64,000 nucleotides of DNA from Owenia fusiformis. Lineage: Eukaryota > Annelida > Polychaeta > Sabellida > Oweniidae. Of the stretch, positions 2,611 through 53,600 are shown in pieces. The stretch covers positions 14,280,150 to 14,344,149 of the forward strand of contig CAIIXF020000002.1 of NCBI GenBank assembly GCA_903813345.2. Direction: 5' to 3'. The first letter of the stretch is position 1, and every line of letters starts with the position of its first letter. The notes beneath the pieces were generated by a model. It was not told the DNA's origin. It did not search any database and saw only the letters and a list, made by a program, of their open reading frames with translations. A program made the position numbers and the translations under genes.

Positions 2611-5600
2611 CTGTCACAACATAGATGGAGTAAATATACAGTACATAAACACAACAGATAACAATACAGAAAGAGCATGCAGGTTTATGTTCAGCGTGAC
2701 ACACATACATTAACAAGACACACAGTGAACAGAATCGCACCCTTGAATAGATTACAGTTTTCCATGAAACTGTTTGGCTGGAAACCTGTAGATAAGACTC
2801 GACAGACAAGATTTAGGGATGGAAAATCAAAACAAGAACACAAATGTGTACAAAATGTCCCCACCTATTGGTGATCCCGTCAAATGGTTATCCTAAAAAT
2901 GAGTAGACAAGATTTTACCGACACAATTTGAGGACGGAAAATCCAAAATGGCCACCTTAAAATTTACCCAGAATGCCAAAGAATTAGTCAGTTCTAGATT
3001 GTCATACTAAGAACCACCCCTGAAAATTTGAAATTGATCAGTCACACAGTTAACCAGAAAACATGTAAACAAGCCTTTACAGACAAGATTTGAGGACAGA
3101 AAATCCAAAATGGCTGCCTTGACATTTATCCAGAATGCCAAAAAACTAATCTGTTTTAGATTTTCATACTAAGAATCATCCCTGAAAATTTGAAATTGAT
3201 CCACCAAACGGTTCACCTGAAAACGCGTAGACAAGACTTTACAGATAAGATTTTAAGACGGAAAATCCAAAATGGCTGCCTTTACATTTATCCAGAATGC
3301 CAAAAAACTAATCAGATCTAGATTTTCATACTGAGAATCATCCCTGAAAATTTGAAATTGATCTACCAAACAGTTCACCTGGAAATGCGTAGACAAGACT
3401 TTACAGACAAGATTTTAGGACAGAAAATCCAAAATGGCTGCCTTGACATTTACCCAGAATGCCAAAAAACTAATCAGAACTAGATTTTCATACTAAAAAT
3501 CATCCCTGAAAATTTGAAATTGATCAACCAAACGGTTCACCTGAAAACATGTAGACAAGTCTTTACGGGCACGATTTTAAGACGGAAAATCCAAAATGGC
3601 TGCCTTGACATTTATCCAGAATGCCAAAAAACTAATCAGATCTAGATTTTCATACGAAGAATCATCCCTGAAAATTTCAAATTGATCTACCAAACGGTTC
3701 ACCTGAAAATGCGTAGACAAGACTTTACAGACAAGATTTTAGGACGGAAAATCCAAAATGGCTGCCTTGACATTTACTCAGAATGCCCAAAAACTAATCA
3801 GATCTAGATTTTCATACTAAGAATCATCCCTGAAAATTTGAAATTGATCTATCAAACGTTTCACCTGAAAATGCGTAGACAAGAGTTTACAGACAAGATT
3901 TTAGGACGGAAAATCCAAAATGGCTGCCTTGACATTTACTCAGAATGCCCAAAAACTAATCAGATCTAGATTTTCATACTAAGAATCATCCCTGAAAATT
4001 TGAAATTGATTTACCAAACGGTTCACCTGAAAACGCGTAGACAAGACTTTACAGACAAGATTTTAGGACGGAAAAATCCAAAATGGCCGACAATAAAAAA
4101 GTGATTATGAATTTTTGCTGATTTCTTTTTACAAAATTATCACATATAACTACTGTTAACAATAAAATAGGCTTTTACAACAAAGTACACCTGAAATTAT
4201 TTATAAAGCTACTAAATAGTTTAAGTATGAAAACTGAATGAAAAACACCATTCAATATGATACAAAGTATTATCGTGCGCTAACTTTTCTTAAAACATTC
4301 AAAATGGCTGACTTGACTGAGCTAACAGGTCCAAAACCTAATCAGATCTAGAATGAAGTGAGCTGAACAAGATTTTAAAGTTTTTAAAGCAACTGTGAAG
4401 CCGTTTTCTTAAAGTTTGCAGACAAGGATTTTAGCATTTGACTTCAAAATGGGCGACAGCAAGTACGTAAGTTAATTTTTTTTCATCCACATCTTTATGC
4501 ACTCATAAGTTATCCCTGAAAATTTGAAGGTGATATCTGTAACGGTTTTGGAGAAAACTGCCGGACGTACGGATGGACAGACAGACGGACAGACAGACGG
4601 ACGGACGCGCCTAGGCCGACAATATGGCCCCACACTATGTGGTGGGACATAAAAAGGGCCATCTTACATTTACCCAGAATACCGAAAAACTAATCAGTTC
4701 TAAACGTTCATGTAACATCACTGAAAATTTCAGATGAAATCCTAAAATGGTTTGGCTGGAAACCTGTAGATAAGCCTCAACAGACAAGATTTTAGGACGG
4801 AAAATCCAAAGTAGCCACCTTAAAGGGTGACGATTAGCATCCCGTATAAAAACAATATGGCGGCTCCAGGCGAATCAACTGGATCAGTCCATTTTTAAGA
4901 AATAAGGGGAGTTCTGTAAAATCCAGTTTATTGAAATTGTCTTTGAGATAAAGTAATCCGTTTATAATGATTTTGAAAACGTTATCCAAAGAGTGATTGC
5001 GTTCAAATAATACATGTACAACAGACAATATAAATTCTTGTATTAGAAACCGGTTTGTCTTGCTTTGTTTCATTTGTAGGATATTTCATATGCCAAGCTG
5101 TGTGCTATTACGTTATGGGGAAATTTAGATGCCAATTTTTCCTTATTATACACAAATAGAAGATCCTGAAACTTCACCCATAAATGTGGAATTGATTTGT
5201 CAAAATAAAAATCACCCTTTTATAAATGTGTGACGATCTATAATATACTTATGCTATATAACAGTTAGAGGTGTTGACACAACGACCTCGAACCTGTGAA
5301 CCCTTGAGTATTATTCCGGGATCGGGCCTTTTATACTAAACGGTGAGCAACACAAGAAACGAGCGTTCGATTTGCTAAACGATATGCGTCACCCTTTAAC
5401 ATTTACCCAGAATGCCTAAAAACTTATCAGCTCTAGGCGTTCATATGTAGAAACATCCCTGATAATTTCAAATGGAACCCTGAATTTACCCAGAAAGCTG
5501 AAAAACTAACCAGTTCTATACTGTAGAAACATCCTCGAAAATTTCAAATAAATTCCTGAAACAGTTTGGCTGTAAACCCGTAGACAAGCCTTGACAGACA

Positions 5601-8600
5601 ACATTTTGGGAAGAAAAATCCAGAATCGCCGCCTTCCATTTACCCAAAATGCCAAAAAACTAATCAGTTCTAAACTTTCATATGTAGAAACATCTCTGAA
5701 AATTTCAAATGAATCCCTGAAACGGTTTGGCTGGAAACCTGTAGACAAGGTATGAGTACCGTAATCCAACACCAAATTCGAAAATTCATAACAATACTTT
5801 GCACATATGGCGTTCGTGACCAACTATTAAACGCTTACCCCCCATAGTGTTATATATCAAAATGTACCTGTTCATATAGGGGTTCGATTGATCTACATCA
5901 AATTATAGGGAGTCAGGTTACTTTTTGAGATATCAGCGTCCATTTATTGTAACTCGCGTTTGCCACCACTTCCTCAATTCTGATATGACGGGCAAACGCG
6001 TAGTAAACATGCTCACGTCGGAACTATTTTTGACCTACATCGCTATTTTCGTAATTCAAATGAAAGTTGAACTCCTCCTCTTTATTTTGATACCAAATAG
6101 TGGCATACTAGGTACCCTAGAAGCCAACTATGGCGTTATTTAGAACAATACCACAGGTTTTTAAATGGACTATATAGGGGTCATACCTTTTGGCGGATGG
6201 ATATGGAACCTCATACCACAAGCCTTGACAGACAAGATTGTAGGATGGAAAATCCAAAATGGCTGGAAACCGTAGACAAGACTGGATGGACAAGATTTTA
6301 GGACGAAAAATCCAAAATGGCTGCCTTTACATTTCCAAGAATGCCCAAAAACTTATCAGGTCTAAACTTTCATACGTAGAAACATCCCTGAAAATTTCAA
6401 ATGAATCCCTAAAATGGTTTGGCTGGAAACCTGTAGACAAGCCTCGACAGACAACATTTTAGGACGAAAAATCCAAATTGACTGCCTTTACATTTACCAA
6501 GATTGCCCAAAAACTAATCAGTTCTAAACTATGATATGTAGAAACATCCCTGAAAATTTCAAATGAATCCCTCGAACAGTTTGGCTGGAAACCTGTAGAC
6601 GAGATTAATCAGGAAGCCTGCCCACCAACCTGCCCGGCTGATCACAATATAGCACACAAGGGTGTGATAAAAACATTATTCTACTAATTTATGAAGTCAT
6701 TGATGCTACCTAGTAGACATGTATGTTCATGTATTATGTGAAAGTCATTCCAAAATTAGATGGTTACATTTCCATAATGCATGTAATGAGTGCTTGGTAT
6801 ATTGCAAAAAATGAAAAATCAAACTACAATCCACTTTATGGAAAGTGCACAACATACAATATTTACGTATACATAATCTTGTACTGAAATCTGGTATCTT
6901 ACTCTGTTGGTCATTTTTCACTTTCTCAGTTAAATTGAACAAGACCTTAAATAAATAAATCCTGTCATCTTTTGCTGAGTTGTGTTAATATGGATAAACA
7001 ACTATCCCAGCTTTTTATATCTGAGTGGTAGAAAATTAAGTCCTAAGGTTAAATTGCCACAACTGGCTCAATTTCATCTGATTTGTTTCACTATATCAGT
7101 ATTGTTTGTTCTATATCCTAGCTTCTTTGATGAAGCATGAGGTTACAAGGTTTATTTGAAAGGTCTAATGAAGCTTATATTTAAGCACTGAAGCAGTAAA
7201 GGATTTTCCTCGTGCTTTCCAAATACATTGCAGTATTTCTGATTGCACTGTTCTGTTACCTGAGACTGTGATTGGTCCATCATGTAACTCTTGCTCATCA
7301 TGGAATCCTCCTCTGCTATAGTGACATTGTCCTTGGACACATTGTAGCTGTTCAAACTCTCAACATCTGCAAAAATGCAATAACATTGTAAATAAGATTG
7401 CAGTTGCTTAAATTATAAATATCTGCAACTACAATAACATTGTAGCCATTTAAACTTAAAATAGTGCAAATAAAACAAGGTATTAACAAGCAAAATGTCA
7501 CCATCTGCCATTTGTTAAAAATGCCAACTGCCAAACACTGTTCACAAAAAGTTGGAGACCATTACAATATAAAAATATAACAATTTCACCCCAGAATAGC
7601 CTGACAACGGTAAAGTCAGATACTGTTGTCACAAATGGCGGAAATAACCGTCGCTTCAATTAGATTTTCATGAACTGTATGTTTAATAGAGCACCTAGAC
7701 TAGATTCCTTTGGAACAACAATCAATCAAAGTGTCTTAATACTCATTGTACATTTAATAATGTTCTACCATCGAAATAAAGTCTTTAATTTAACCGATCG
7801 AATGAGATACCGAACAACAGACATTGTAATTACCATATGCCGTTGCCTTTCTAAATTACTCAAATTCAGATTCCGTTGTCATTGACGATATTGAAGATGC
7901 TATATTGTGGCGATTCATGACCCAATTTGATCGAAAATGGGATTTCATATGATACATTATCACAAGAGCTTAATACATGCGCAGAATTAGTGACAATAAA
8001 ATCCCATGAAATGAGGACCAAGTGATTAAACAGTTGAAGCGACGATTATGTCGGCCATTTGTGACAACGGTGTCTGACTTTACCGTTGTCAGGCTATTCC
8101 GGTGTGAATGTAAGTTACAAATACTGATGCTGAATGCCAGTCACAAGAATGTTTATAAATGATGCTGTGTTGCAAACTACTGTAATCAGTGAACAAAGAA
8201 ATAGCTGACCCACCTTGCATGCTGCTTTCATCCATGTTGAATGATGTTCCTGTGATAACACTGTCTGTCTCTGCTGCATCCAGGGCAGCTTCCTGGACAG
8301 CCTTGATGTCTCTCTCAAGCTGAGAAATGTAGTCATCTTGCTATAAACACATCAAAACATCAAGCTGTACTATTATTTTGCATCATGCTACTTGTTATCT
8401 TGAACATACTTTTTTTTATCTTGAAATTTCTGGTGCACAACTAACAAAGGGTTCTCTCATTCTGCATACTGTTAAATCAGTGTATTCCTTCAGTCATACA
8501 CTGGTATTGTTGTTCTAAAATTTATGCCAAACATTATGAGTGATTTTGAAATTCACTGTCTTTATTTTAAGTGGCCAGAATAGAACTAGTCATATACATA

Positions 8601-14600: not shown

Positions 14601-17600
14601 GATGTTAGATGAAATAAATGGTGATTGAATTGTGTTCGCACAATTTTATCTTCGGTTCATTGGTTAGTATGCATGTTGTAGTCCAAGCGCCTTGACCAAT
14701 CAGAAAGTTAGCGGGCGCGAGCTTTTCAAAACTTATATTGGCCCGCTGTCTTGTGAACAGTTTACACCATACATCATCATAGGTACATGTATGTTATAAC
14801 AACGTATTATTTATATCAACAGTACCATGGTTAACAAGGCATTAACATGACAAAATGTCACCACCTAGTTGCTCACAATATTATTGTAGATGATTTTGAA
14901 AAAATGGTCAATTTGAAGCAAGTTGAAAAAAGACCTTTTTTGCCCCTGAAAAGGTTATTGAAGGTGGAATCTCAAATCTAAAGTCAGATTTGAACTTCTG
15001 AGAACTTGTAGATGATTTTGAAAAAATGGTCAATTTGAAGCAAGTTGAAAAAGACCTTTTTTGACCCTGAAAATGTTATTGAAGGTGGAATCTCAAATCT
15101 AAAGTCAGATTTGAACTTCTGAGAACTTGTAGATGATTTTGAAAAAAATGGTCAATTTGAAGCAAGTTGAAAAAAGACCTTTTTTGACCCTGAAAAGGTT
15201 ATTGAAGGTGGAATCTCAAATCTAAAGTCAGATTTGAACTTCTGAGAACTTGTAGATGATTTTGAAAAAATGGTCAATTTGAAGCAAGTTGAAAAAAGAC
15301 CTTTTTTGACCCTGAAAATGTTATTGAAGGTGGAATCTCAAATCTAAAGTCAAATTTGAACTTCTGAGAACTTGTAGATGATTTGGGAAAAAATAGTCAA
15401 TTTGTAACAAGTTGAAAAAGACCTTTTTTGACCATGAGAAGGTCATTGAAGGTCGAATATTTTTTGACCTGGGGGATATCATCGAAGGTCAAATCTATAG
15501 TCAGATTTGAACTTTTCAGAAATTCTAGAAGATTTTGAAAAAAATTGATCAATTTGTAGCAAGTTGAAAGACCTTTTTGACCTTGAGAAGGTCAGTGAAG
15601 GTCAAATCTCAATTCTAAAGTCAGATTTAAACTTCTGATAACTTGTAGATGACAATGAAATAAAATTGTCAATTTAAAGCAAGTTGAAAAAATACCTTTT
15701 TGACCTTTTTTCACCTTGAGAAGGTCACTGAAGGTCAAATCTCAATTCTCAAGTCAGATTTGAACTTCAACAGCTTGTACATGATTTTGAAAAAAATGGT
15801 CACTTAGGTCAAAAAATACCTTTTTTTACCTTGAGAAGGTCAATAAAGGTCAAATCTCAAATCTAAAGTCAGATTTAGACTTCTGATAACTCATAGATGA
15901 TTTTGAAAAAAAATTAGTCAGTTTGAAGCAAGTTGAAAAAAGACCTTTTTGACCTTGAAAAGGTCACTGAAGGTCAAATCTTACATAAAAGTCAGATTTC
16001 AACTTCTGGAAACTGAAAACTTGTAGATGATTTTGAAACAAGGCACAGGACGTGAACGAGATCACACCATCAAATAGGCAGACACTATGAACCAGGAAAA
16101 CTGTTCTCCTATTATGTTTACAAATTTCAAGAACAAGAAAACAAGATGGCCGCCCAAAAGTTAATCAGCTCTACTTGATATCCTCTATCATTTGTGTAAA
16201 TTTGAAGGAAATCCGATGAGCGGTTTTCCTGAAATGGCGATGACAAGATTTTTCGAAAAACCTTCAAAATGGCCACAAGAAAACAAGATGGCCGCCCAAA
16301 AGTTAATCAGCTCTAGTACTTGATATCCTCTATCATGTGTGTAAATTTGAAGGAACAAGATGGCCGCCCAAAAGTTAATCAGCTCTAGTACTTGATATCC
16401 TCTATCATTTGTGTAAATTTGAAGGAAATCCAATGAGCGGTTTTCCTGAAATGGCGATGACAAGATTTTTCGAAAAACCTTCAAAATGGCCGCCAGAAAA
16501 CAAGATGGCTACCCAAAAGTTAATCAGCTCTAGTACTTCATATGCTCTATCATCTCTGCGAATTTGGAGAAAATCTGATGAGCAGTTTTCCTTAAACGGC
16601 AATGACAAAAAGCGGGACGATCACGATCACGACCACGATCACGATCACGACCACGATCACGATCACGACCACGATCACGACCAGTATGACGACTATATCC
16701 CACCGATGGTGTGATAAAAACATAATTACAATAGTACATTTTAGGGACTTTTGTGACTGAAATACACCATTCACTAAAAAAATATCTGGTTACAAATATA
16801 TTGAAAGATAAAATAACTTACTTTGAGATAGTCACAATGTACAGTGGTGCCTGCCCTTCGTCGTTTTTTAATGTCAACATTTTGTTTTGGGAACTTCAAA
16901 ACTAAAGCTTTCCTTCTAACTGAGTCAGCGCTGAAACATGGCAATATACAAATTAGCAGTCAGTCTGCATTGTGTGTGGAGTCTTTTTTAAGAATAATTG
17001 TATCATTCAGTACATCAAATTGTTAGCCAAATAAGAGATATAATATAATAACAAAGGACAAAATTAAAAGTATAAGAAAAAGAATTCGAGTGTGGCTTAC
17101 TGTTGAATGAGATCCTTTGAGAGTTTTATCTTGGTGTCCTCCACCTTGATGAGTTCCTGGTCCAGCAGGTCAGGGTTGGTGGCCTCCTCCTCCTGTTCCT
17201 CTGTCATAGCAACAGGTATTGGGGCATTTGCCCCTCCCTTGCTGTATAGGGGGCACTCCTTGTTGGTCCTCATGTGTCCCATCTGGCCACATGCCCCACA
17301 CTTCAACTAGAATTAATATACATAATAATAGGAAGTTGTGTATCTTTAAGACATTAAAACAATTTAAGTTCAGAATCTCCCAAGGAATCTAAATCAATAA
17401 CAAAACCCCGAGGTCATAACTTTAATTATATTTTAGTCACTAAAGGAAAGCAATAAATTCTTATAAAATAAATTCAGGTTCTGACATTGAAAACAGTTAA
17501 TAGTATAACAGTGCATAAAAGTGTTTTATTTCCCATCATTAAAGATACTTTGAATATTGTTAATTTTTTCAATATACATTGAGTTCAACATACTTTTAAT

Positions 17601-20600
17601 GTGCTCAACTTAACAATAGCATTGTCTTTCTTCTTGCGTTTAGCTTGAGGAGGTGTCAGTCTGTCCCGTTCTTGGTTGCGCTTGACACGTCGCAATTGTT
17701 CCTGAATACGTCGACGCTCCTTCTTCAGCTCAGCCTTCTGTGTGTCATCTAATGTTGCAAACTGCTTGCTGTGTTGAAAAAAATATTAATATTTACTTGA
17801 AATTAATTTAAAAAATCAAAACATGAGGTTGTAGTTGTTACATAAGATTTGATTAAAAGTTAAAGAAAGATGCCTTATATAACTATATAATATGAAGTTT
17901 GTCTTACATGAAGTTATTGTCCTTAGTCTGCCTTACTCTGACATAGACATCAATAATTGCAGGTTTCCGGACAATCTCTGTCCTTGTAAACTCACGTCCC
18001 TGGTCATCTCTGAACACACGTGTGATCTTAAGCTTCTTCCCACCCTGTAGAAAGAACATTGTACACAAGATGTACATAAATTGTATGCATAAAAACATAT
18101 TGCATATGAACTCTCTTTCATTGCTTGGGCTTGTAAAACTACATTGCAAATGATCACATTGGTGATAAGTATGGCAATGTTTTGATTAATCATGGAAACA
18201 CTAATTTATATAATATACTACAGAGGATCATTTGACCTATACATTCGTTTCAATCCAATGGACTACTAGTATCCCATGTCTTTATTTAGTTCTTATTTTA
18301 ATGTATATATTTTATGATAAAGCAGTATATTATCACGGTTTACATATCCTGTGAAGAAAGTTTTATAAAAAAAAATAAAGAATAAAAAATAGAGAGGTAT
18401 TATAAGAATATTGTGATTAAACCTCGTACATTCACTAGAATCTAATAAACCTTATTAATATACTTACACCAAAGAGGTCATCCTCATCCAGTTTTCCACC
18501 AGGTGTAGGTGTCCCAGCAGACTTACGTTTCTTTGCAGCTTTGCCATCATCTCCTCCCATCAACATCTTCTGTAGTTCCCTCCTCTCTTCTTCCTCTTTC
18601 TCAAGCTTCACCTGAACACATACAATATACTAGAACTAGAAAAAAGCTACTCCCGGAGTAGCAAATCCCACCAAACAAAACATGAAATCACTCATCATTT
18701 TGGACATAACCAGGGAGCAGTAAAGTAATATACAATGTCTCCTTTTTGCAAAATCTACACCCATGATGTGATATCAACCAATATTCTAAATTTCTTTTTG
18801 AGTAGTTTCTTCTCTGACAACAGGTAACTTGAGTTGAAACATTAGGCAGCCATATTAAATTCAGCAGCCATACGGGATATTACTCCTTGAGCAGATTCCT
18901 ATGTACCTATGAAATTAGCAAACATAATTTGAACCAAATACATCAACTGGTATCAAAGATTACATTTCTTGCAAAAAATGGTGACTATTGAATTAAGTAG
19001 ACTAATACACGATAGATGAAAACGTGGTCGTTAACATATATATATCCGGCAATGCATTGCTTTGAGTGGGAAAATTTTCATTGGTCAGTCAGTCAATATA
19101 TTATTCTCTCAACCTTTAGACCATGTTCTTGCGTATTGTTGGGTCAATAAAGTTAATACTAATATCAAGTTACAATTCTCACAATTGATGGCTTCAGGGA
19201 ATGGAGTGATGATAATACATTTTATGATTATCGTCAGTTTCAGAAAATATTTGTGAAAATGCTTTGCAGTTTGTCATAAGGACATTTAGTACTACGGCCA
19301 AGGCGATTTGTGTCCAAAACACCTAGATTCAATTTGACTTTAGATTCTTGTAGGGGACCCCAAGGCATGTAAAAAAAGTTTGTGAACCCTTACAAAGCAG
19401 GCTCAAAAGTGCTGAATCAGCAAATTTCATCATTTTCGAGTCGGAGTTTGACCATATGCTTGAAACTATTTAATATCTCATTTGAGGATGATGCAATTGT
19501 AATGAAACATTGTTAGTATATCAATAAGGCATGTATGAAGAATTCCTGAAAGTTTGGGTCTTATCCAACAAGATTTGGTAGAGATATGGGATAATTTGTC
19601 CCTAAAAGTTCATAATTTCTCTTCAAAATGTCTTAATCAGTCGATAGTTAATCAGTCATTTAAAAAACAGTAAGGGCCTATGGTGTATAAAACCTGATTA
19701 AAAACTTCACTGATGATGTTAGCAAATATTTCTTGCATAAGTTTCAATAAAAAGTGCATGCATCTATTTTTTCCGATTTTTCTCTTTACCTTCCCCTAAA
19801 AATTCAGTTGTTGAACTTTTTGCTAGGGTCAAATAGAAAATATGTATCATTATAGCAAAAAGTGTTATTCTAAATAAATCTTAACACTATTTGTGACATC
19901 ATAATATGCTAAACATATTCATTATCTATCATTTTATATTTTTTAAAGCTTATCATTGCCATAAACCATAAAACCATTATTAGGGTATGTGTGGTCAGCA
20001 ATTGGAAATACATGTATGTGTACTCATAACATTTTTCAAAACTGTATTTCGGGTGCCATTCTTTCCTAATGTTGTCCATGTAGTTATAGTTTATGTTTAT
20101 GAATGATAGCACTTCCCATCATAAGTTTGGCAACTCAAACCCCTTTGAATCACTTATTAAAGCCTGTTTATTTTTGGCATATGAAATAGAAATATCCGAA
20201 ATATGGTAATAAGGAACATAATCAAGGTTTAAACATTGACAGACTTTGATATGCTATCATATAATAACTTTCAGTTGCCAAACTTATGGAGGGGGTGTAC
20301 ATGCTTTATAGTATAGGGTCCATGTAAACTGCAACAAGACACCTATTGTTGCTGCAAATAATTAGCTATATAATAACAAATTGTAACACCAAATGATTAA
20401 AGGAATATTCCTTGCCAAACCATCTCTCTCCTCATATGGTAGCTATAACCATATATATGCTTGCCATGTTTAGCAAAACACGCAAAAATGTTTTGATATG
20501 GTCAAATTTGATCACTTAGAAATGTGATGCTCAATTCCAGTAAGCTGCCATCTTTTAAAATTTCACACAGGAAGTGATGTCATCGACTCTCAACTTTGCA

Positions 20601-35600: not shown

Positions 35601-38600
35601 TAGCATCCTACTATCACTCTAGTATAAACATTTATTAATGCACAAGATTGCCAACTCACCTCAATTCAATTCACTTTATTTCAAATGTTTTAGATACAAT
35701 ATTTTACCATGTGGGGTGTATTAGTTCCATGTTAACATACAATATATCATTTACTAAATTGACAGTCAGGTTATATGGAAACTGAAAATGACAAAGCATA
35801 AAATACATAAATAAAAATAAATAAATGAAAACAACAGGCAAAATTAATGGAAATCATAAATTTAACATGGAAAATTGAAAATTCCCTAAAAAACAGGCAA
35901 TTTTGTGAAAACAACCGGTGAAAATAGCCTGTTAATGCTGCTAATGAAACCCCTGCATCATAATAAAATACAAGTAATGAGAAGAAAGCATTTTACAAAG
36001 TAGATATAATTATGACAAGCAAATCAAACTTGAACTTTCGTTCAAATGATTTGATATGTTTAGACTTTTTGAGATCAAGTGAAAGATCAAGTAAAGTAAT
36101 GGGCTACTTATTTCAATTGATTTTCTTCCAATTTCTGTTCTGAATTTTTTCATAGTTATTGATTCTTGTATCATGATTATGAATTGCTGTTCCTGGAATG
36201 ATTAAATGTTTAAATGTTTTCTATACAAAGCTAGCAGTTTGTAGTTTATTTATGTCAAATATATTCAATATTTTCAATTTTGAAAAGAGAAGTCCTGAAG
36301 GAGCTAGACGATCAGAATATGTGATAACTCTTATCACTTATTAACTCACCTTCCCAGCATTAGGTTTGTTGGGAACTTTAACAAATGAGAATCCCTCCCC
36401 ACAGCCAGTAGGGTCCGCCACACCTGTTAGTTGTAAGAGACACTTGCCCTTCAAGGCAGCTATGTAGGCCCTGGTGGTGTTCCAGGGTGCTGTGCGCACC
36501 TCATCTTCTATCTTGTTCTGCAACACATATACTGTACATAAAACAATCAAATTCATCAGCTCAGTGGAGCATGTTGCAATAGTTTACGCATGTGTATTTT
36601 TTATATATTTTCTCAGCAATTTTGTTTTATTGTTGATATGAAACCCAAACTGTTTTATTATTATTATACCTTGGTTACCGCCATATTTGGCGAGCAATAC
36701 CTCATTGGTATATTCTGTATTTATGTATTTTACACTCGAAGATAGAGCCAGAAACCCCTCCTTGGAGGAGCCATGTGTTCTTTTATGTGCACAGGTACAC
36801 AGACATACAGGTACACACCACAGCCTTTTATACGAGTCGTGAACCACTCAGTCAAACACCCAGAATTACATAACGCACAAACAAACTTGTCTGAACCGGG
36901 AATCGAACCCGGGGCCAAGCGATATTGGTAACCTTGACTCTCTCTGCCACTGAGCCATAGCGGGTGGACTGTTATTGTTACCAAATTGCAATATTCTCAT
37001 TTAGGTTAAGTCTACCATTGTCCATACTTTGACATCATTATCACTAGAAAAAAAAACAGCAACTCCACATAGTAGCAAATTCCACCACACAAAACATATT
37101 TTGATAATTAGTGGCCATCTTGAAAATTTCTTCTTGACAAAACATATTAGCATATAAACTTTGAACCAAATCTGGATCTACTTGTATTTGAGTTATCAAA
37201 GATTATGTTTTTTCTCAGAAAAATGCTTGCCATTTTAAAAGTGAGCAGCCATCTTGAAAATTTCTTCTGAAGCAGAGCTCCTCTGTCCCTACATGGCAGT
37301 ATATAAAATTCGAACTAAATCCGTCAATGGGTATTTGAGTTATAAAAGATTATGTTTTTTGAAAAATCGCAGCCATTTTGAAATTTGGCTGCCATTCTTA
37401 AACATTTCTTTGTCCCTAGGTAACATCATATAAAATTTGAACCAAATCCATCGACTGGTATTTGAGTTACCAGATCACGGGAACATGTAAAACGTTGCAA
37501 TCTGAACTTGGAAAGCTGACCCAGAATACGAACTCTATACAGGGCAATCTAGCATCTATCACACGTATTGTAACTAGCTCTAAACCTTCCGACCTTGTTA
37601 ATTCCAGTGCACCCCCTAAACAAACTCAACAGGTAATGGCTAATTTTGCCAAATCTTCTATAACGGAATTGAATGCTAGTAAGCCGCTGAGTACGCCAAA
37701 TGACCCAGACGTCCCGGATTATACCGACGGGTCAAATAATGTAAACAATAACATTAGACCTGAATCGACCCAGGTCAGTGCAACCCCAGCTGCTGATGCC
37801 AGCCGCAGTCGAACTGATCTTCATATGGATACCCCTGGCACATCGCAAAATGCCATTTTGCCACATACACTGCTGCCCTCCCAATGTTCCGCAGATCAGC
37901 ATGGTTGTAATAAACTGAATGGTGAACCCTCTAAACAACGTAGAAGCTCGACACCTCGAAGCAGTCCCCAGAAATTGACGTATACGAGAACGCAAACCCC
38001 CACGCCCCCCAGACCACCTAGATCGAATCTTAACCTGAATACGCCCCAGGGGTCAAGTGGGCAGGTGACCTATGGCGTGACGGACACCGGTGTATGGCGC
38101 GGTCCACCTCCAACGGATCGCGGAATATGGAAGGGCCCCGACCCACCTGGCAAGGAATGGCAAACGTGGCTCGGAAATAATCAGCTTCGGCGAAAGAAGG
38201 CGGCGGCGAAACAAAAGGAATATGTCAACACGGTCCCCACAAGACCCGATACAACACGTGACAACGCCAGCACACGACCCAGAAGCAGTGGCCTAAGAGG
38301 AATTGAGTATGAGGAAGTGAGGGTACTTTATTTAGAAAATATTTATCAATCAAGTGAGGAGGACGACGAGGATACAATCAATAATGTGAAACGTTTTGCA
38401 GTGGATAATAATATTAGATTGAAACAAATACATGTTGTGCATAACCGGATTTCTTGTGACAAAGTTGGATGTAAAATAACGATACCTAAACACCAGGTAG
38501 ACAGGGCTTTGTGTGTTGACTTGTGGCCCGTTCCTATTAGATGTAGGGAATGGGAACGTCGGAGACGACGTTATGTTGACAACGATGACAGAAGTGACGT

Positions 38601-41600
38601 TGATTTGAGGCCGAGATACAACTTTTAACTATGTGTTTCACCTTCAAGATTATTCTCTTATTGCATCTACTCTTTGTTGTCACTTTAATACAGTTAATGG
38701 TATCAATATCGCAATGGAACATAAATGGTCTGAATTCATCGGAGGTGTACCTGAGAGATCTTCTTAGATCGAGTGATATAGTTGCTGTTTCAGAGCACCG
38801 TTTATTTGAATGTAACCTTAATAAATTGAGCTCTGTAGACTCTGATTTTAATACTCTTGCTTTTAGCTGTAAATCACTTGACTCAATGCAATGCGGGCTA
38901 ACATGGGGACATGGAGGCATAGCCTTATTGTGGCGAAAATCTTTAAAATATCCCGTGTCACCGATTAGAAAATTCTGCACTGATAGAATCGCATGTATTA
39001 AGGTTGAAACAAATGTACCAATTTATGTATTTTCTGTATATCTGCCACAAGTAGGTTGCAAAAATGATATTTTTGAGGATGTTTTGAATTTTCTCGAAGA
39101 GTGTGTAAACCAATGCAAACGAGATGCAAATTGTATTATTGCTGGTGATTTTAATGCCAATTTAGGCAATTTATATGAAACGCGACGGTCTACTGGTAAA
39201 CATAGTTTTAATGGTCTTTTGTTGTTTCAAATGTTGCAACGCAACGGATTAGTAGCCGTTGATATGCAAAATAGTTCACAAGGTCCATGTCATACATATG
39301 AAACTGCCACTGGGCACAGAACTTATATAGACCATATTGTACTGTCTGAATCTTTATTAGAACATGTAATTAGCTGTGATGTATTGGTTAGCGCTCACAC
39401 TGCAGATTTTGGTCATTTGGCGATTAGGAGTGTGATTGACCTGCCATCTTTAAAACATGTATTTAATTCAGCGCCTAATTGTGTAATGAAAATTTATGCT
39501 TGGAATAGGGTGACTAAAAATGACATTACAGAATTGTTTACGTGTCCAATGCAAACTGATTTAAAACATTTAATTAACGAAATATCAACCTCTAGCAATA
39601 CTGACAGTGATACCATAGATAACTACATTGATAGGTTAATCAAATTAATCAATTGTAGAGCCGATATAGTTATTCCACTTAAAAAATTCATGAAACATCA
39701 GAAACCTTTTTGGAACAGCCATTTAACTCGCCTGAAGAAACAACAGAAACGGGCTTGGCATGTTTGGGTGAATGCAGGGAGACCGAGGGATGTTATGGAT
39801 ACCACAAGAAAGATTTACAAGGACTCAAAGAGGATATTCCGGGCGGCTTTTAACAAATACAAGGTCGAGTACGAGCACAAAAAGTTAAATGAATTATACG
39901 AACTTGACGAAATGGACCAACGAACATTCTGGTATCTTTTGAATAAAAGTCGACAGTGTAAAAGTAAATCAACAGGCGCTGTTAGAGCGGACAATGGGGA
40001 AATTATAATGGATCCCTCTGCAGTTTGTAATGAATGGCAATCATATTTTTGTAAGTTGGCTTCATTTGACCATAGGGATATTTTTGATAATCATTTTGAA
40101 AACGAGGTTGTTTCTGACATGAATATGATGAAAATGAATTCTGTATTTAATAAAGATGGTATTTTAGACACTGATTTTACGACTGAGGAAGTTAATAAGT
40201 GTATTTTAAAATTGAATAATAATAGAGCTGCCGGTCACGATGGTTTAAATGCTGAACACATTAAATATGGTGGCCCATGTATGACTACTTTTCTAACACT
40301 GCTTTTTAACGTTATTCGTGTTAGTGAATATATTCCAGAAAACTTTTGTACAGGAATTCTTATTCCTCTTTTAAAGTCAGGTAACAAAGATTGCCTTAAC
40401 AAAGACCACCACAGAGGTATAACGTTAATGAGTATTTTAAGGAAACTATTTGATAATATTGTACTTGCTAGGATGCTCCCAAGGCTCAGAAATGCTATCC
40501 CTCAACTTCAAGGTGCTTCAGTCGAAAAGTGTTCTTCACTTCACACATCTTTTTTGCTTCAGGAAGTCATATCACATAATGTTAAAGAAGGAGTATTTTT
40601 GGCGTTAATGGACATTCGGAAAGCCTTCGATGGTACCTGGATTGATGGGCTGTTCTGGAAACTGTACCAAACCGGAATTAATGGACTTGCTTGGCGTATC
40701 TTATATCAGTCATATTGCAAATATAAATGTAGAGTTCTTGTAAATGGTGTAATGAATTCTGAATCTTTCTACGTGCGTAGGGGAGTCCACCAAGGCGGGG
40801 TCTGCAGTATGCATCTCTACCAATTCTTCATTGCCGACCTCTTAAATGACTTAATAGACAGTAATTGTATTGCAAAGATTGGGGGACACCCTGTAGGCTG
40901 CCCTGCATACGCCGATGATCTCGCGCTAATAACTACTGAACCAGAATATATGAATAGACTACTTAAGGTTGCACATGAATACAGCAGACGTTGGCGGTTT
41001 GAATTCCACCCAGATAAATGTGTAATAATGACTTATGGTCCAGCTAAAAGGACATTGTATGATTTCAAACTCGGGACAGCATCCCTTAAAACTGTTCAGA
41101 CAGCTCAACACGTTGGAATCCCTCTTGGTAAAACAAAAGATCATGTGAAAAGTGCAATATCTGCAGCAAGAAGGAAATACTGTTCACTATTAGGGCTGGG
41201 AAATGGGTGCGGTGGCATTCACCCACTATTAGCTTCAAAGTTATACTGGTCCTTCGCTTATCCAACTATGACCTATGGATGTGCTGTAATACCATACTCA
41301 GAAGATGACATCAAACTGATGGAATCCGCGCATAGAGAGATTGGCAAGCGAATACAGTCATTACCTAAGAATACACCAGATCCCGTAGCAACCAGACTAC
41401 TTGGCTGGATGCCAGTACAAGCGAAGATCGATTGCGATAGGCTTATGTTCTTATTTATGCTGTTATCTTTGCCCATGAATTGTATATATAAAATCATATG
41501 TTTGGAGAGCCTAATTCGAATGATGTACACAAATGTAACCTGTAAACACATGAAGTCCCCCATTTATTACATGTGGGAAACGGTTCTTAAGTATAACCTT

Positions 41601-44600
41601 ACTGACATTGTGAATGAAATGGTTTTTAATGCTAAATATCCAAGTAAACTGAATTTTAGATATACTATTTATAAGAGAGTCAAAGATTTTAATACTCGTA
41701 CCACTGTGCTATCGACATTGATGTACAAGAGTTTAAATATGATGGCAGGTTCTTTGTTGGAATTTAAGCCAAATGTTTGGTGGATTATTGCTAAAAATAA
41801 CCCCAATTTTGTGTACTGTACTAAGATTATGATCAAATTATTAACTGGAACGTATGATTTAAATAGTAGACGTCGCGAGGGTGATACATCTGTATGTAAG
41901 ACATGTGTGCTCTGTGAGCTCAATGAAAATGAAACTGTGAAACATTTCTTATTAAAGTGTCCGGCTCTTTCTGGAGTCAGGGAACCCATGATTAACATTG
42001 CAATGACCAATCTGAATGTTCAAGATGACAATTTTATTCTTAAGGTAATACTTGGTATAGTATGTTGTGACAATGAGAAACTATTATCCATATCACAGAA
42101 AGTGTACATAATGCATAAGCAGAGACAACTGCTGTTAAAAAATGTCTAATTACTGTACATTACCTACTCTTTATTAATCTTTGTCTGATGCTTTTACTTT
42201 TTAATTTTTTTGTATAAATTTGTGAATGTAACTCTCTTGTTATTAAGAGGCAAATAAATTATACATACATACATACAAAGATTACATTTTTAACAACTAA
42301 TGCCTGCCATTTTGATAAATACAGTAGGTGCCATCTCAAAAATATTTTCTTGAGCAAACTTCATCTCTTGCATCTTGAAAATTTCTTCTTGGGCAGAGGT
42401 CTTTTGCCGATTGGTAGCAGTCAAATTTGAACGAAATCGATCCACTGGTATTTATCAAAAGTAACATTTTTTACGAAAAATGGTGGCCATTTTGAAATTC
42501 AACTGTCATCTTGAAAATTTCTCCTCGAAAAACGTTCCTTTGTCTCTTGGAAACAGCATTTAAAATTTGAACCATTTATCCGTCCACTAATATTTGAGTT
42601 ACTGCTAATACACTTAATTTGGCTTCCATTTTAATTTGACGGATTGGCGGATTGGAAAATCTGCCAAATTAAAAGTCCGCCAATTTTAATTTTAATCAAA
42701 TCCGTCATCTGGTATTTGAGTTATCACCCTGACGGACAGATTCTCTAAATCCCCCTCGAACTTAGTTCAATGAGATAACAATGGATTTAGGAATTTTGGA
42801 AGCTAAAAGTGTTAAAATGTACCTCAGAGACATATAAGATTTTATAAAATATCCATTTCTTTCTATCAATCAATTTAAAATTGCCCTAAATAATCATAAG
42901 TGCCAATCACATACCTGGTTGTCATCATCATTTTCATCATCAGGAGTGAAGAGTGATTTTTCACCATATCCTGCATCTTTCAGTCTCTGCTCTGCAGCCA
43001 GCATGGAGTAGTAGCCACAGCATTGTTCTGGGGACACCATGGCTCTCATTTCCTCTTCTGTGGGCAATCTAAAGTCTGGCTTTAAAACCCACCAGTTGGA
43101 GTCCATACCTAAACACATCAAAAACAACAACATACTCTCTTCATCCAGCATAAAATTGTTCATCCAAACATAACAAGGCATTAACATGACCAAATGTCAC
43201 CACCTAGTACATGTAGCTCATACTATTTGAAGAAGATTTTGAAAATAAAATTGGTCAATTTAAAGCCAGTTCAAAAAAGACCTTTTTGACCTTTTTACAT
43301 TGAGAAAGTCAAATCTCAAATCTAAGTCAGATTTAAAATTCTGAGCACTTGTAGATGAGTTTGAAAAAATAATGAACAATTTGAAACAGTTAAACAAGAC
43401 CTTTTTGACCTTATTTTGACCCTAAGAGGGTCATTGAAGGTCAAATCTTAAATATTAAGTCAGATTTGAACTTCTGAGATATTGTAGATGATTTTGAAAA
43501 AAAATTTGGAGTAAGTTGAAAATAGACCTTTTTGACCTTTTTATGAACTTCTGAGAACTTGTACATGATTTCAAAAAAATTGAAGTCAGTCTAAACAGTA
43601 TTTGTTAAGTTATTGGAAGTTTTTACAATTTGTTACAGACCCTTGACGCCAACCGCTGCCTGCCAACCATCATTACAGAAATACAGTCAAAGATGCAAAA
43701 TATGATAATTCAAATAAGTGATAATTCTTCTATTTCATTCATTTCCATACCCCTCTATAGATTGCAATATTGACTGCTTGTCCTGTGCCAAAAACCTGAC
43801 AATTATTTTTACCTGTTCTTTTGAAGTCAGCACATAATTTCAGTCTCTTTCTGATACTGCTCTCAGAGTGTGATGGGAAAGCTTTCTTGATATCTTCCAT
43901 CTTGATACGACGTACACTGTCTTTGTTTTTCCAGAATAGTCGGTATATGAACACCTGCAACAGTTGACCAATTAAACATAAGACTGTATCTGATAAAGGG
44001 TAGGTATCGATGTGGTGAACTAAATTCAACAATGTTTTTCTCTTAAACCAATTATTGAAAACATTCTGTAAAAAACACGGTCCTTCATGTAATGTTGACT
44101 GATTGACAACAATTTAATGTGAAAATCATTTATTATTTTAACTGTTTTTGTTAAAAAATTTTGTGTTTAGTGCAACTGTTTTTTGCTCCTTTCTACCAAT
44201 TCTTGAGAATGAAATAAAATCTTTTATTTCATTACACAAGATACTTTTTTAAAATCAACCGAACTTTCTTTTGTACAATTACAATATTGAGAGACCTAAA
44301 CACATTGTGTTTATGTCATTTTGTTCCGGTGAAGTTGGGAAAGATGTTTCATTTCATTCCAAACATATGATACCAAGAAAAAAAGAAGTGTCTGATGTGT
44401 TTTCTAAAACAATATAGAGAAAAGTATACTGTATAATTTCAAATTATAATGTTACCATCCAAAAGATGACCATTAAATTGACGATGTGTAACATTTTCAG
44501 AATGTTTTGAAGACTGGTTTAAAGTCCCCGATAAATCGGGCTACGTATACCGCCGTGTTTACATTAGGGGATTAGAAGAGTTTATTTTTTATTTAGGTAT

Positions 44601-47600
44601 GCAAGCTACGTATATCAATATTAGGCCTTCATTCATGTACTCGTGTGCATGTAATCAGCATGCCCTTCAATATTATGTAAACCAGGCTATTCAAGTACTG
44701 TATAATGTACACTATTTATGTGTGTACTACATACAATACAATTCCCTGTGAAACAAAACACAAATACTTTTTATATGTTCAAAATGAGCCATTTGATTGA
44801 TGCAAACACTAAATAGCTTCATAAATAACATCTACAAAGTATATCTAATTGTAATTTTCAATTTCAATGGTGAAACTTCCCTGGTTACGCATTATCTGGG
44901 AAATCATCACGAGACGAAGATCGTTCGCCTTCCTGGCTAACCTCTGAATCGTGTACCTGGTAATCTCTTTATATAGTTTAGCGAGAGCGGTGCGCCTGCG
45001 CAGTTTTAAACTTTGGCGCACACTTTAAGAGAAATGTGTTTTCAAAAAGTTCACCATATCGATACCACTCCTTTATATTTCTAAAGACAGAAATTAAATA
45101 TGAAAACCTCTCCAGTTGGTAACTAACACAGACGTGTTAATGGGAACCTGGTATCTTCTCACCTGTAGAAAATCCCTGATAAAATTGTTAGCACGTTTGG
45201 AGTTGGGACCAGGCACCTCATGTAGGGGACACTCTTGTCCTATAGCAAATATACCATCAACCTCTCTTATATAATAACTGTTTCTTGTACGAACCACTAG
45301 GAAATCTGTATGTGGCATCTTATGTTCATAGATTGGTGCCCGGAATAGGTTATTCTCCGTGGCCTGTATGGATTCACCAGGGGAGAGACCCCCTAGAAAT
45401 GGTGATGTGTGGGCATATGCTAATTCACCAAATTTAAACTCCTTAGGTGTATTGTCAGTGCCAGTCTTTCGTTTGTAATAGTTTTTTATTTTTGTTGCCA
45501 TGCCAACTTGCATCATAAGGGGAGGGAATTCCTCTGAGTATTCACAGAGAATCAACTCTCCATCCATTCCTGTGAGATCCTGGGGAGTGCGCATGAAGAA
45601 CATGTCTCCGCCTCCGCTCGCCAGTCTCTCCTGCTCACGAGTCTGAAATAGACACCTTGGCAATCAGAAAAAGTTATGTCAGCCATGTTTGTAATTTCAT
45701 GTTTGTTCTGTCATGTTCATTACTTATTCTGTAAAAATGTGTCACATGAAAATTGCTCAAATTTGAACAGATATTTAAACATTTTCTCCCAAGAATTTCT
45801 GGAAAACCTAAAATGAAATAAGCCGCTTAAATATGAAAGAACTAGAATAATAGCAACTCCACAGAGTAGCAAATCCCATTGAACAAAACATATTTTATAA
45901 AATCTCTCATCATTTTGAACATAACATGATAGAAATAATCAGGCAGTAGTATTATTGTCTCCTTTAGGCAAATCTACACCCATGATGTGACATGATTTCA
46001 TAATATAACAAATTCTTTCTTGACTAGAAGTCCTTGGCCATGGGAAGGGGGCATTAGCTTGTAAACTTTTGACCAAAATATGATAATGGTTTTTGCTCAA
46101 CCATGATAAGCATTTATTAGTGCTATGATTATTTGCCCAAAAGATTGATATTTTTGTTACAGCGAATGAAAAGAAAGTATTTTCCCGGGCATCAAAAGAA
46201 CAGTTTTAGACTCGGTTCTTTATGATCTGATGGTTCCAGTACAAACATGAGGCAAAAGATTGTGATTAACCAAACCAAAACGTACATGACTGAAAAAATG
46301 GTTTAATATTACTTGGTCACCTGAAAAACAAGCCTGTCAATAGTACTCTGTAATAGTTATAAATATCAGATATAGAGGTTCTTGTATGAATGCCTGTGCT
46401 GTTTAAAAGATCATTCATTCTTGACAAAAAAAATTTCCAGTCATATTTTTAATGAATATCAAGTCTTTTACAGGTACAAATACAAGAATGTTTCTCTCAA
46501 GTGACTCTGTTCTATTATGCAATACATTCATTTTTAAGACAAAATGTTAAACGTTGTTACAGTGATACTCATGGATACTCATTGCAACAGTGTTTATTAG
46601 AGGTGTCAAGGATACCTGATTTTGTCACAATAAAGGCTCTCAGTTTGGAAAACAGAACAAATATGCAATCTTTCGGTTCAGTTCCAGAACAAGAAAATCT
46701 TAACCTTTTCAGCTTCTTTGGCCTCAAAATTCTACAGAAATGGCAATTCTTTCCTATTCTTTGCAACAAAAGTTGGTCTTATTTCCACTCCTTCTCAATA
46801 AAGAGCTTAACATGATACTTCGAATCAATCCTCATTTTATGCGTACATAACGTATGAGGGGATTTCGAGCGGTCTGATTCTGAACCTGTTCTGTTAGTGA
46901 TACATAACCTCACATAATCATGAATATTGCTACATAGTTCTTAAGGGATGAATATTGATTTATTTTTGTTTCCCTTTATTTCTGTATTCCCATAAGCTGA
47001 CAAGATATCCAATCTTTACTAATAAGGCGCTAGATTTGTTGCAAATGAATACCCATTTAGATTAATTTATTATGAAATGATGCTTCCTTTTGTAGGGAAC
47101 ACATCTGTGGTGTCAAAAGACCTATGCATTCACTCTGTTCCAGGCCCTAGCTGAATTATTCCAATTGTTCTTGTTCCATAACACCTTTAATGTTTATGTT
47201 GCCATGTTGTTGTTTTATACAAACAAGTGATGTTACAAGAACATTTCATCTTAAGGATGAAAGATGGCTGTATCATTATGAGGTAAGGATGGTTGAATCT
47301 CAGGAAGTGATATGAGAAAATGATGATTCAGTATTTACCTTTGAATACAAACTACCTACTTTTGCTTTGCGTTTTATAGCTTTGGTAAGTGAGTGCACGG
47401 GATGTGGACCTGGCTGTACCAGCTGCCCATATGAGTACTTCTTGAGAGGGGGTCGGTGAAAGCTCCTTAGCTTGGTAGGCCCCATGTGTGTGGGGAAGAA
47501 TGGCTGCCTCAGCTCTATGGCCGGGGTGGAGTGCTACAATACAAATACACATTTTACTTTTTTTATCACATGTCCCAATGACTGGCATGTTTCCTATTAA

Positions 47601-50600: not shown

Positions 50601-53600
50601 TTTTCTAAAACAATATAGATGAAAGTATATATATATTTTTCAAATTATATTGCTACTCTTCAAAAGATGACCATTAAATTGACAATATGTAAAATTTTCA
50701 GAACTTATTGATGACTGGTTTAAGAGAAACGTGTGTTCAAAAAGTTCGCCATATCGATAGCCATCTTTTGGTTTGCATATTCAGATTCCTGAGAAAATTC
50801 TACCCTTATTTCAAATTCATATGTTAAATTTTGAGAACTCTTTAGTTTGACCTACTTTCTGGATGCCTTATCTCAAAATAATCAAAATCGGTAATCAAAG
50901 TAATAAAAAAACAGATGGCACACTCTGGATTTGGCTTCTCTTAGCTACATAATGAGATGTACATCCAGGTGTTAAGATAAATAATGACAAGATAATTGAC
51001 AGAATGTTAAAAATTTAAGATTTGACCAAGTTCTTGACCTTAGACCTTGATAAGAATTTGACCTAATTTCCCAGAAACTAGGTTGATGGGCTCTATTAAC
51101 TATGTAAGTAGGTTAAAGTAAGCTCTTCCCGTTGCTGAGATAAAGTGTTGACATTGGAAATTGAACAAGTTCAATTTCTGACTCCAGATTTAGACTTTCG
51201 TGGCATCCACAATAAGCTGAGTCACCCAGAATAAGCCGAGTCATTCAGAATAAGCCGAGTCTTCAAGAATAAGCCAAGTCATCCAGAAAAAGCCGAGTCA
51301 TTCAGAATAAGCCGAGTCTTCAAGAATAAGCCGAGTCATCCAGAAAAAGATGGATGGATGAATGGATTGAATAGGAAGGAAGGATAGGATAGAATAGGAA
51401 GGAAAAATAGGGTAGAATAGGATAAGAGGGATAGGATAAGATAGGATAGGAAGCAAGAATAACATAGGAAGGATAGGAAAGGATAGAAAGGAAGGATAGA
51501 TAGAAAGGATATGATAGAATAGGAAGGAACAAGAGGATAGAATAGGAAAGAAGGATAGGATAGGATAGGAAGCAAGAATAAGATAGAAAGGATAGGAAAG
51601 GATAGAAAGGAAGGATAGGATAGGAGCAGACAGGATAGGAAGGTTGGATGGATTTTTCAATATTTCTTTGCTACTCTTGACTTTCTATCAGGATACCATC
51701 AGATTGATTTTACTCAAAATTTCAAAACGCCATTACTTCGGAACCGGAAGTAAGAGCGATATTTGGTTTGCAGATTCGGATTCCTGACAAAATGCTACCC
51801 CTAATTCATAACTCATACGTTGAATTTGGAGAACTTCTTGTTCTGACCTACATTTTGGCGGCCATATCGGTAATATTTCAAAAACTCCCATAATACACTG
51901 AGAGTCTCTAATGGTATACCGAGATTGCTATGGTCAGAATTAACATTCATTATAGCTTTTAAATCATCACTTTAAGCGAATATACAAGAATTCAAGGGTA
52001 AGTCAACATGACAATTTTCATTTGATAATTCTAAGTATCACAAGCCAACATATTGCATTAAAATAGATCTAAACATTAGCAAATAATGTGCAGAAGCTAT
52101 AGCAACACAAGAAATATTTGGGCATAGCTTTCCTTTAATTTACCATGCCTGATAGTTTTTTTGTTTAATTTTTAATATCATGGTAAAACTAGAAATCAGC
52201 AACTCAACGGAGCAGCAAATCCCAACGAATGCCATTTCATGAATCTGTATATGTCACAATGTAATGTTTACCACCTACTCTACCCTTAATTAAATTGGCA
52301 GATATTAAGACATGTATTAGAGATATATCAGAATTTCCAAATAAAGCATTTTGGGTGACTTATGAGTTTCAAAGGAACAAATCAAAAAAGACACTATAAT
52401 ATAGTATTTAACCATACTTTAAAGAGATCTCTAAATAATATCAAATTCTTGCTCAAGGCAGCCATTTTGAATTCTCTGAAGCACAAATCAGAAGAACAAC
52501 ACCATAATTATGATGTACTCTAAAATTCCTTTAATTTAGGTAGAATATAGCCATACTTTATAGAGATCAGAAATGTATTGCGAGATTCCACATAAAGTGG
52601 CGATTTTGAATTACACAAGGCCTGAATTAAAAACATTATACAAAATTTGGAATCTACTCTAAATTGCCTTTCATTTGAGCATAATAAAGCTATACTTCAG
52701 AAAGATCTCAAAATTCCTGTTTTCCTAACTGCCATACACAGCCCCTGGGGGTCAGGCTAGAAAAACATGGATAATATGTGAAATAGATAGATGTTGTGAA
52801 TATACTACCAAAATTTCAAACAACAATATTCATTACTTTAAAATGAATAACTTAAGATTTTTACAAAAATTCCTGCCATTTCGAAAGTGGTAGCTATCTT
52901 GCGTAAAACTATTCACCAATATTCATCTTCCCACTAAATATGAAGCAAATCCATCCACCAGTATTCGAGTTATCTTCCTGACAGATGGACTGACTGGCTG
53001 ATGGACAGACAGAGGGCTTCACTATATCCCTACCAAACTTTGTTCGTTGAGATAAAAGGTCATCCCCAGTCAGATTCTTTATTGGATTTATCTTTCAGAA
53101 TGATGTGATATCTTCCCTCTGGAGAAACCCAATACAAAAAAACCCTCCCTGGATATATAAGAACGTGTAATTCTACCTGCTGCTCCAAGCATATGGGGAG
53201 CATTAGGGAGCCCTCCAAGTTTCACTCCTCCACCTGCAGCCTGGGAACTGCCACCACCCTTAGCTAACAAAATAAACACCAACACCAAATATCTATTAAA
53301 TCATTACATCAATCCAACATGTATACTTACTTATTACCATATTATTGTACACATTCAATAATACTGTTTATTATGCACCTCATTAAAATACTCAAATCTG
53401 ATTGGTTAAGAGCTGCATTGCCATACGTGGCAGCAAGATCTCGTTCTATCCACTATTGAAGCAACGAGATCTCCAACCATCCCGCATACCTATCCTCCAA
53501 AAAAAATACTAGGCTCGGCTTCTGTTTTAGTAGACCCATTCTTTAAAATAAAGTACTTCTTGACAATTTAACCCCATCTGATATATATATGATTAATGAT

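Follow-up and report, generated by a model that had tools for sequence, protein, structure and literature searches.

Repeat families in the window and across the genome

The window considered here is a 64,000-bp stretch of the genome of the annelid Owenia fusiformis (G000:C2:14280150-14344149; the genome comprises 498 Mb in 525 contigs), much of which is spanned by a TAF1-like host gene (about 9296-45663, minus strand) with DUF3591 and bromodomain exons and TFIID subunit 1 as its best PDB match. Interspersed in it are repeats of several families, designated A, A', B, C and D (the last with subfamilies D1, D2 and D3), which have unlike bodies and follow one plan, with two paired subterminal words, tandem units of 120-165 bp and an ACGG or CACGAT microsatellite. 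The tandem unit is shortest in A' (122 bp), followed by D (138 bp), C (145 bp) and A and B (162 bp each). At the 5' end of each family, the word and an inverted copy next to it form a terminal hairpin; at the 3' end, the word stands in inverse orientation and is followed by a short stretch, which holds a predicted hairpin in D that is clear for D1, and then by CTTGT or CTAGT. The placement is asymmetric, the 5' word lying at the terminus and the 3' word about 21-31 bp from the 3' terminus in the seven (sub)families. The families are very probably Helentron-associated elements (HINEs), namely non-autonomous Helentrons of the Helitron2 type that are copied by the Rep-helicase-endonuclease proteins which same-ended autonomous Helentrons encode. 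The HINE/Helentron class of rolling-circle elements is known, and the repeats are new members of it carrying the paired end-words in an unusually clear form.

Scanning the window for 14 end patterns, with 25% edits allowed, gave the elements listed in Table 1 and no match on the reversed window. A preliminary description of this DNA had recognised families that are indeed present, though its element list missed the nesting of A in B and of C in A' as well as the A' end at 7475, the D-type ends at 18635, 37050/42741 and 45841, and the B end at 56638. The other end of B, which it reported as not seen, was found with two edits, so that B encloses the nested A element. For the A' copies at 14834 and 43173, the scan recovered the CTTGT end only and no 5' end. 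The ends at 37050 and 42741 are probably those of one D element, joined here by inference.

Table 1. Repeat elements and other sequence features of the window (positions counted from its first base)
Feature	Position	Strand	Remarks
Family B HINE, complete	2713-6668	minus	3' end 2713-2745 (CAAGGGTGCGAT..GTCTTGT, minus strand); 5' hairpin end 6638-6668 (2 edits); interrupted by nested A
Family A HINE nested in B	2832-4650	minus	3' end 2832-2865; 5' hairpin end about 4619-4650; 162-bp units 2881-4087; ACGG microsatellite
Family A' 3' end	7475-7506	minus	4 edits
Family A' element	14834-16037	minus	3' end 14834-14865; 122-bp units; interrupted by C
Family C HINE nested in A'	16038-16715	minus	Both ends exact; CACGAT microsatellite
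D-type (D3-like) CTAGT end	18635-18677	minus	End scan
Family C HINE	30546-31106	minus	Both ends exact; paralogous empty sites place the insertion between T and T
Family D HINE, subfamily D1	33509-34531	minus	Word ATCCCATC; both ends
Family A 3' end fragment	34595-34720	minus	Body end not delimited
Probable D-type element split by a non-long-terminal-repeat (non-LTR) retrotransposon	37050-42776	minus	3' end 37050-37093; hairpin end 42741-42776
Family A' element, 3' end only	43173-43640	minus	Right limit approximate
D-type CTAGT end	45841-45883	minus	End scan
Family D HINE, subfamily D2-like, decayed	52188-53053	minus	Word ATCCCAACG; both ends
B-type 3' end	56638-56670	minus	3 edits
Non-LTR retrotransposon	37441-42149	plus	Open frame of 395 amino acids and endonuclease-reverse transcriptase frame of 1181 amino acids (second open reading frame, 38604-42149); apparently inserted in the D-type element
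Long simple-repeat array, ATCAT-type	60416-61093
Long simple-repeat array, GGATA-type	51364-51640

Copy numbers were taken as matches to the end patterns in the whole genome and set against those of the same patterns read backwards (three mismatches were allowed for the C, B and A' patterns). The A, A', B and C ends gave 372, 3326, 168 and 299 matches, respectively, and the D hairpin-end 3347, each against 0 backwards; the D CTAGT-end gave 2994 against 3. The family ends are far above chance, and the proposal that several unlike families share one plan is confirmed. Strand totals were balanced genome-wide for all end patterns, and the individual places used below are the first 100 listed per end search.

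Concordance of the paired words

At the (sub)family level, the 5' word equals the 3' word over 11-12 nt, namely ATGTCCCCACC in A, ATGTCACCACC in A', ATCGCACCCTT in B, ATCACACCATC in C, ATCCCATCGAAC in D1, ATCCCAACGAAC in D2 and ATCCCACCGAAC in D3. Single copies deviate from these, the A, B and D2-like copies of the window each having a change in at least one word. A 5' hairpin was predicted in all seven consensus ends, with energies of -4.1 to -10.2 kcal/mol (DNA parameters). When duplexes were computed between all 5' and 3' words, using hand-transcribed consensus sequences of which three of the seven are D subfamilies, each 5' word formed its strongest duplex with its own 3' word, and each 3' word with its own 5' word; of the 5040 permutations, none but the identity attained the summed value of the cognate pairs.

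The agreement was furthermore followed copy by copy in family D on contig C1, where 92 of the 100 listed 3' ends (eight outside the range of the other list were dropped) and the 100 listed 5' ends yielded 26 pairs at most 6 kb apart in the right orientation. Letter 7 of the word was the same at both ends in 24 of the 26 (A in 14, C in 8 and T in 2) and discordant in two, an agreement reached in 0 of 20000 shuffles. Because the three letters mark subfamilies, this represents co-variation between lineages and not 24 independent events. The cognate duplex test and the concordance of letter 7 together support the earlier suggestion that the two words co-vary between families.

Autonomous partners and the direction of the elements

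A search of the genome with the Helitron Rep domain profile found the domain 58 times, often within open frames of at least 2000 amino acids (maximum 3377). A' has three autonomous copies, whose open frames measure 2424, 2508 and 2576 amino acids. The element on C11 begins 5' with the hairpin ATGTCACCACC-AAAA-GTGGTGACAT and ends 3' in GGTGGTGACAT..CTTGT, the reverse complement of what had been described as the A' start, and copies on C6 and C10 carry both of these ends at other sites. Because this gene-bearing element, with ends shared on C6 and C10, sets the direction, the described start is the 3' end of the element; according to the genes in the autonomous A and A' elements, the 5'-to-3' direction of the preliminary description is reversed, its 5' end being the 3' end (the word, then CTTGT or CTAGT) and its 3' end the hairpin-bearing 5' end. 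The C11 protein matched Pfam Helitron_like_N and PIF1, and the endonuclease part of A' was recognised through 37% identity to that of A, not by a direct Pfam match. The C11 element, which shows two tandem 5' termini 48 bp apart (stretch positions 3832 and 3880), is itself inserted in a D element. The partner of A, on C1, extends from a hairpin end (4661045) through Rep (4667175) and an endonuclease frame to a CTTGT end (about 4673247), with direct domain matches to Rep in the profile search and to Exo_endo_phos of Pfam in the endonuclease frame.

Two copies were found of a partner of D. At C4:27741500-27756500, D ends lie 13.8 kb apart around a Rep-helicase-endonuclease gene with broken frames, of the type of element E5; E5 itself, on C5, is 95% identical to the C4 copy over 5.3 kb of gene, and its two frames matched Pfam Helitron_like_N, PIF1 and Exo_endo_phos. 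E5 and C4 are collinear up to the D hairpin terminus, where the homology stops. The upstream D end of E5, a variant CTGGT, lies on the far side, 26.6 kb away, with C4-homologous parts behind it. The gene of the D partner is read from the CTAGT-type end towards the hairpin end, the reverse of the direction in A and A'. When the two stretches were scanned with the 14 patterns, no second family's ends flanked the gene on both sides, and the interval from the gene to the D hairpin terminus held a single loose generic match (C4, minus strand). A third E5-type copy, on C8, is a truncated remnant; a segment at about 4522-5386 of the C4 stretch is 97% shared with it and resembles, by eye, a protein-kinase fragment, perhaps captured host DNA. 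At about 5.6-7.1 kb of the E5 stretch, several A'-like 3' ends ending CTTAT stand in a row behind one A'-like hairpin end.

The preliminary description had envisaged one replication machinery reading the paired words and an element with Rep and helicase between the same ends. Such elements exist for A, A' and D, and none was found for B or C. Each of the three partnered families has its own divergent protein, A' and D being about 30-33% identical over long aligned parts and the endonuclease parts of A and A' only as alike as stated above, which speaks against a single machinery. The same-ended elements, together with the insertion sites described below, agree with the HINE/Helentron-like class to which the repeats had been assigned.

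Insertion sites

Empty sites were sought with ten joined-flank sequences together; 40 of 2199 candidates were scored, and all 40 came from two of the ten, the other eight having no match among them. The empty sites read correspond to the autonomous copy of A (all seven listed places) and to the C element at 30546 (nine of 33 listed). In all 16, the element had entered between T and T without target duplication, the joined flanks having one base more than the empty site (for A a T, on either side; for C a G, on the 5' side). Target duplications with terminal inverted repeats at both termini, named beforehand as the mark of a cut-and-paste transposon, were absent from the sites read.

Proposed mechanism and alternative explanations

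Fitting the mechanism of Bao and Jurka (2013) to the present data, we propose the following course of events. Rep would nick at the T/hairpin end, and the helicase would then peel off a single strand. Once the 3' word has emerged, it may pair with the 5' word, whereby the 5' hairpin would open and the stop be marked; the strand would next close into a circle and enter a T-rich single-stranded target. The words would co-vary because a cognate pair must match, either by pairing or through one protein that reads both.

Several observations weigh against the assignment of the families to HINEs copied in this way. The predicted 3' hairpin is clear for D1 only (-5.8) and moderate, at about -3, for D2 and D3, and the predicted 3' stems of A' (-2.8), A, B and C are weak and borrow part of the word. 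The 16 empty sites amount to two insertion events, because the sites of each set are all paralogues of a single host repeat. At the nested site of A in B, the A-run is about four bases longer (by eye) than in the B units, so that the T-run length is not conserved there. No autonomous partner of B or C was found. In the D partner, the region just upstream of the gene differs greatly between E5 and C4, and in both copies the interval separating the CTAGT-type end from the gene contains short A'-like minus-strand remnants (about 5.6-7.1 kb in the E5 stretch and 4.7-4.8 kb in the C4 stretch), along with one further weak A'-like match at 11.8 kb of E5 and a few loose generic matches across the two.

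Inverted words at both ends would also fit miniature inverted-repeat transposable elements (MITEs) that move by cut and paste, have true terminal inverted repeats and duplicate their target, and Pearl, a similar element of bivalves, was formerly classed as a MITE (PMC7492417). However, the words are asymmetric, terminal at the 5' end but internal at the 3' end, the empty sites read show no duplication, and the same ends bound Rep-helicase-endonuclease genes; the gene content of A, A' and D and the empty sites of A and C refute this origin for those families, and we regard it as highly improbable overall. Even more remote is a scattering of ordinary satellite-like repeats without transposition. 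Though the tandem units make up much of each element, sharp common ends recur at hundreds to thousands of places in both orientations, and with the empty sites in addition this explanation is counted as refuted.

Two further alternatives concern parts of the HINE interpretation. The words may co-vary because one Rep binds three copies of the same double-stranded site (the 5' word, the neighbouring inverted copy and the 3' word) and not because single-stranded ends pair, a possibility to which we give a little less than an even chance. The identity of the two words over 11-12 nt is explained equally well by a protein site; the pairing predicted at letter 7 of the hairpin, T-G in D1 and C-G in D3, is compatible with a structure and constitutes weak evidence against the protein-site explanation. 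It is somewhat unlikely, on the other hand, that the reversed gene of E5 and C4 is not the machinery of the D family and that a D element captured a foreign Helentron gene in reverse. The direction of the gene, the divergence upstream of it and the A'-like remnants would accord with capture, and reversal by self-insertion has been proposed for fungal elements (PMC5148889). Nevertheless, two copies at different places on C5 and C4, 95% identical over 5.3 kb of gene, are each bounded by D ends at either side and cease to be homologous at the D hairpin terminus, no other family's ends enclose the gene, and reversed genes are known in other families.

Relation to known systems

The preliminary description had ranked these repeats as a candidate for an undescribed system, which is not supported. 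In papers of 2013-2020, asymmetric paired words, the 5' hairpin, the 3' palindrome and compensatory changes are already described (PMC3627910; PMC4067079; PMC5148889; PMC7492417). Helitron2 elements have short asymmetric terminal inverted repeats, the 5' one within a 5' hairpin, a 5' T, and a 3' repeat that precedes a hairpin and lies about 20-30 bp inside the 3' end; compensatory mutations between one pair of related families and a pairing model for the stop were also reported (Bao and Jurka 2013, PMC3627910). The present families share with that group the asymmetric repeats, 5' hairpin, subterminal 3' repeat, 5' T and compensatory changes, and differ from it in comprising seven (sub)families in one genome, in the copy-by-copy concordance count and in the endonuclease domain that marks Helentrons. 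Helentrons were defined by a Rep-helicase with an apurinic/apyrimidinic (AP)-type endonuclease, and HINEs by subterminal inverted repeats (subTIRs), tandem repeats and microsatellites; that study, which also covers DINE-1, reported TT insertion without target change and a reversed gene in Helentron-Da-40 (Thomas et al. 2014, PMC4067079). All of these traits, the domains and the reversed-gene case included, recur here in other families, which were compared by description; mite HINE subTIRs lie 38-60 bp from the 3' end, compared with about 21-31 bp in O. fusiformis.

The Cg_HINE and Pearl elements of oysters have a left flank with a subTIR and its inverted copy, a right flank with a subTIR and a palindrome, central repeats resembling satellite DNA (about 160 bp in Pearl) and mostly 4-nt, GTCY-like microsatellites (Vojvoda Zeljko et al. 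2020, PMC7492417). Apart from the 3' palindrome, which is clear here for D1 only, the architecture is the same as that found here, the likeness being drawn from architecture and not from sequence. None of 10 autonomous Helentrons could be related to the Cg_HINEs in that study, whereas three families here have an autonomous partner. The FoHeli elements of Fusarium likewise have asymmetric inverted repeats, 5' hairpins and, in two subgroups, reversed open reading frames, and joined ends were supported experimentally in one subgroup (PMC5148889); they differ in their fungal hosts and, in the portion of that article compared, in that no endonuclease domain was found. The present work demonstrates the paired words and the partners cleanly, and the reversed gene of D is a known, uncommon variant. 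Gene-bearing partners are now linked to three abundant HINE families, a connection that could not be made in the oyster study, and the idea that both end-words must match receives a copy-by-copy test.

Shared strand of neighbouring elements

All ends recognised in the window lie on one strand, making 14 insertions when 37050 and 42741 are counted as one element. On C1, where 404 places among the matches listed were merged to 377, same-strand pairs of all families numbered 37 of 47 at 3-10 kb and 69 of 96 at 10-30 kb (0/2000 shuffles each), 95 of 175 at 30-60 kb (258/2000, not significant) and 158 of 269 at 60-120 kb (4/2000), with no excess at 250-500 kb (580 of 1162). The 3-10 kb bin may include both ends of long D elements, whereas the counts for pairs of different families do not; these were on the same strand in 14 of 16 cases at 3-10 kb (1/2000 shuffles) and 36 of 46 at 10-30 kb (0/2000). 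Broken down by family at 10-30 kb, same-strand pairs were 22/29 for A'-D, 8/11 for A'-A' and 18/29 for D-D, the last two not significant.

This local strand bias is the less expected finding. The elements of the window are all sense because the window sits in the TAF1-like gene on the minus strand. On C1, four of the listed D and A' places, chosen by eye for lying no more than 15 kb from an ion-channel exon, were all antisense (8884731, 8861373, 7063380 and 6282829), the first lying between exons of a channel gene and the second beside that same gene. The sole A' end in 14 ion-channel exon loci checked is sense, since the exon of that locus is on the minus strand. Host-gene sense was accordingly rejected as the cause, only one of the five element-exon neighbours checked outside the window being sense and four antisense. 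A splice-donor pattern tried as a marker of the gene strand proved useless (1327 matches against 1655 backwards). The T-tract asymmetry of the window, about 1.05-1.25 fold, is so small that it cannot explain 14 of 14.

We tentatively raise the idea, unlikely as it appears at present, that Helentron insertion is strand-directed by the local chromosome state, so that insertions of unrelated families share a strand across tens of kilobases. Single-stranded circles might then be linked to T-rich targets that one strand presents in single-stranded form, such as the lagging-strand template, and HINEs would record the direction of replication forks in the germline. If the shared local orientation proves genome-wide, a strand preference of rolling-circle insertion would become testable from sequence and maps of replication direction. 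A literature search showed, among the records listed, no report of such domains for Helitrons, which is weak evidence of novelty.

Other Rep-bearing elements

The ends of large Helentrons with frames of about 3000 amino acids (E6, E12, C5:12.4 Mb, C13, C104, C3 and C347) were sought and not found. Short B-type HINEs upstream of the large Helentrons on C3, C347 and C6 were rejected as the ends of the latter, being complete nested passengers, and the B passengers upstream of Rep on C3 and C347 are sister copies. The flanks of C2:24601785 and C7:20018186 gave loose generic matches only and no end of the present families. Small contigs numbered 13 or higher, about 4% of the assembly, hold 33 of the 58 Rep-domain matches, with two or more on each of C13, C158, C412, C505 and C515.

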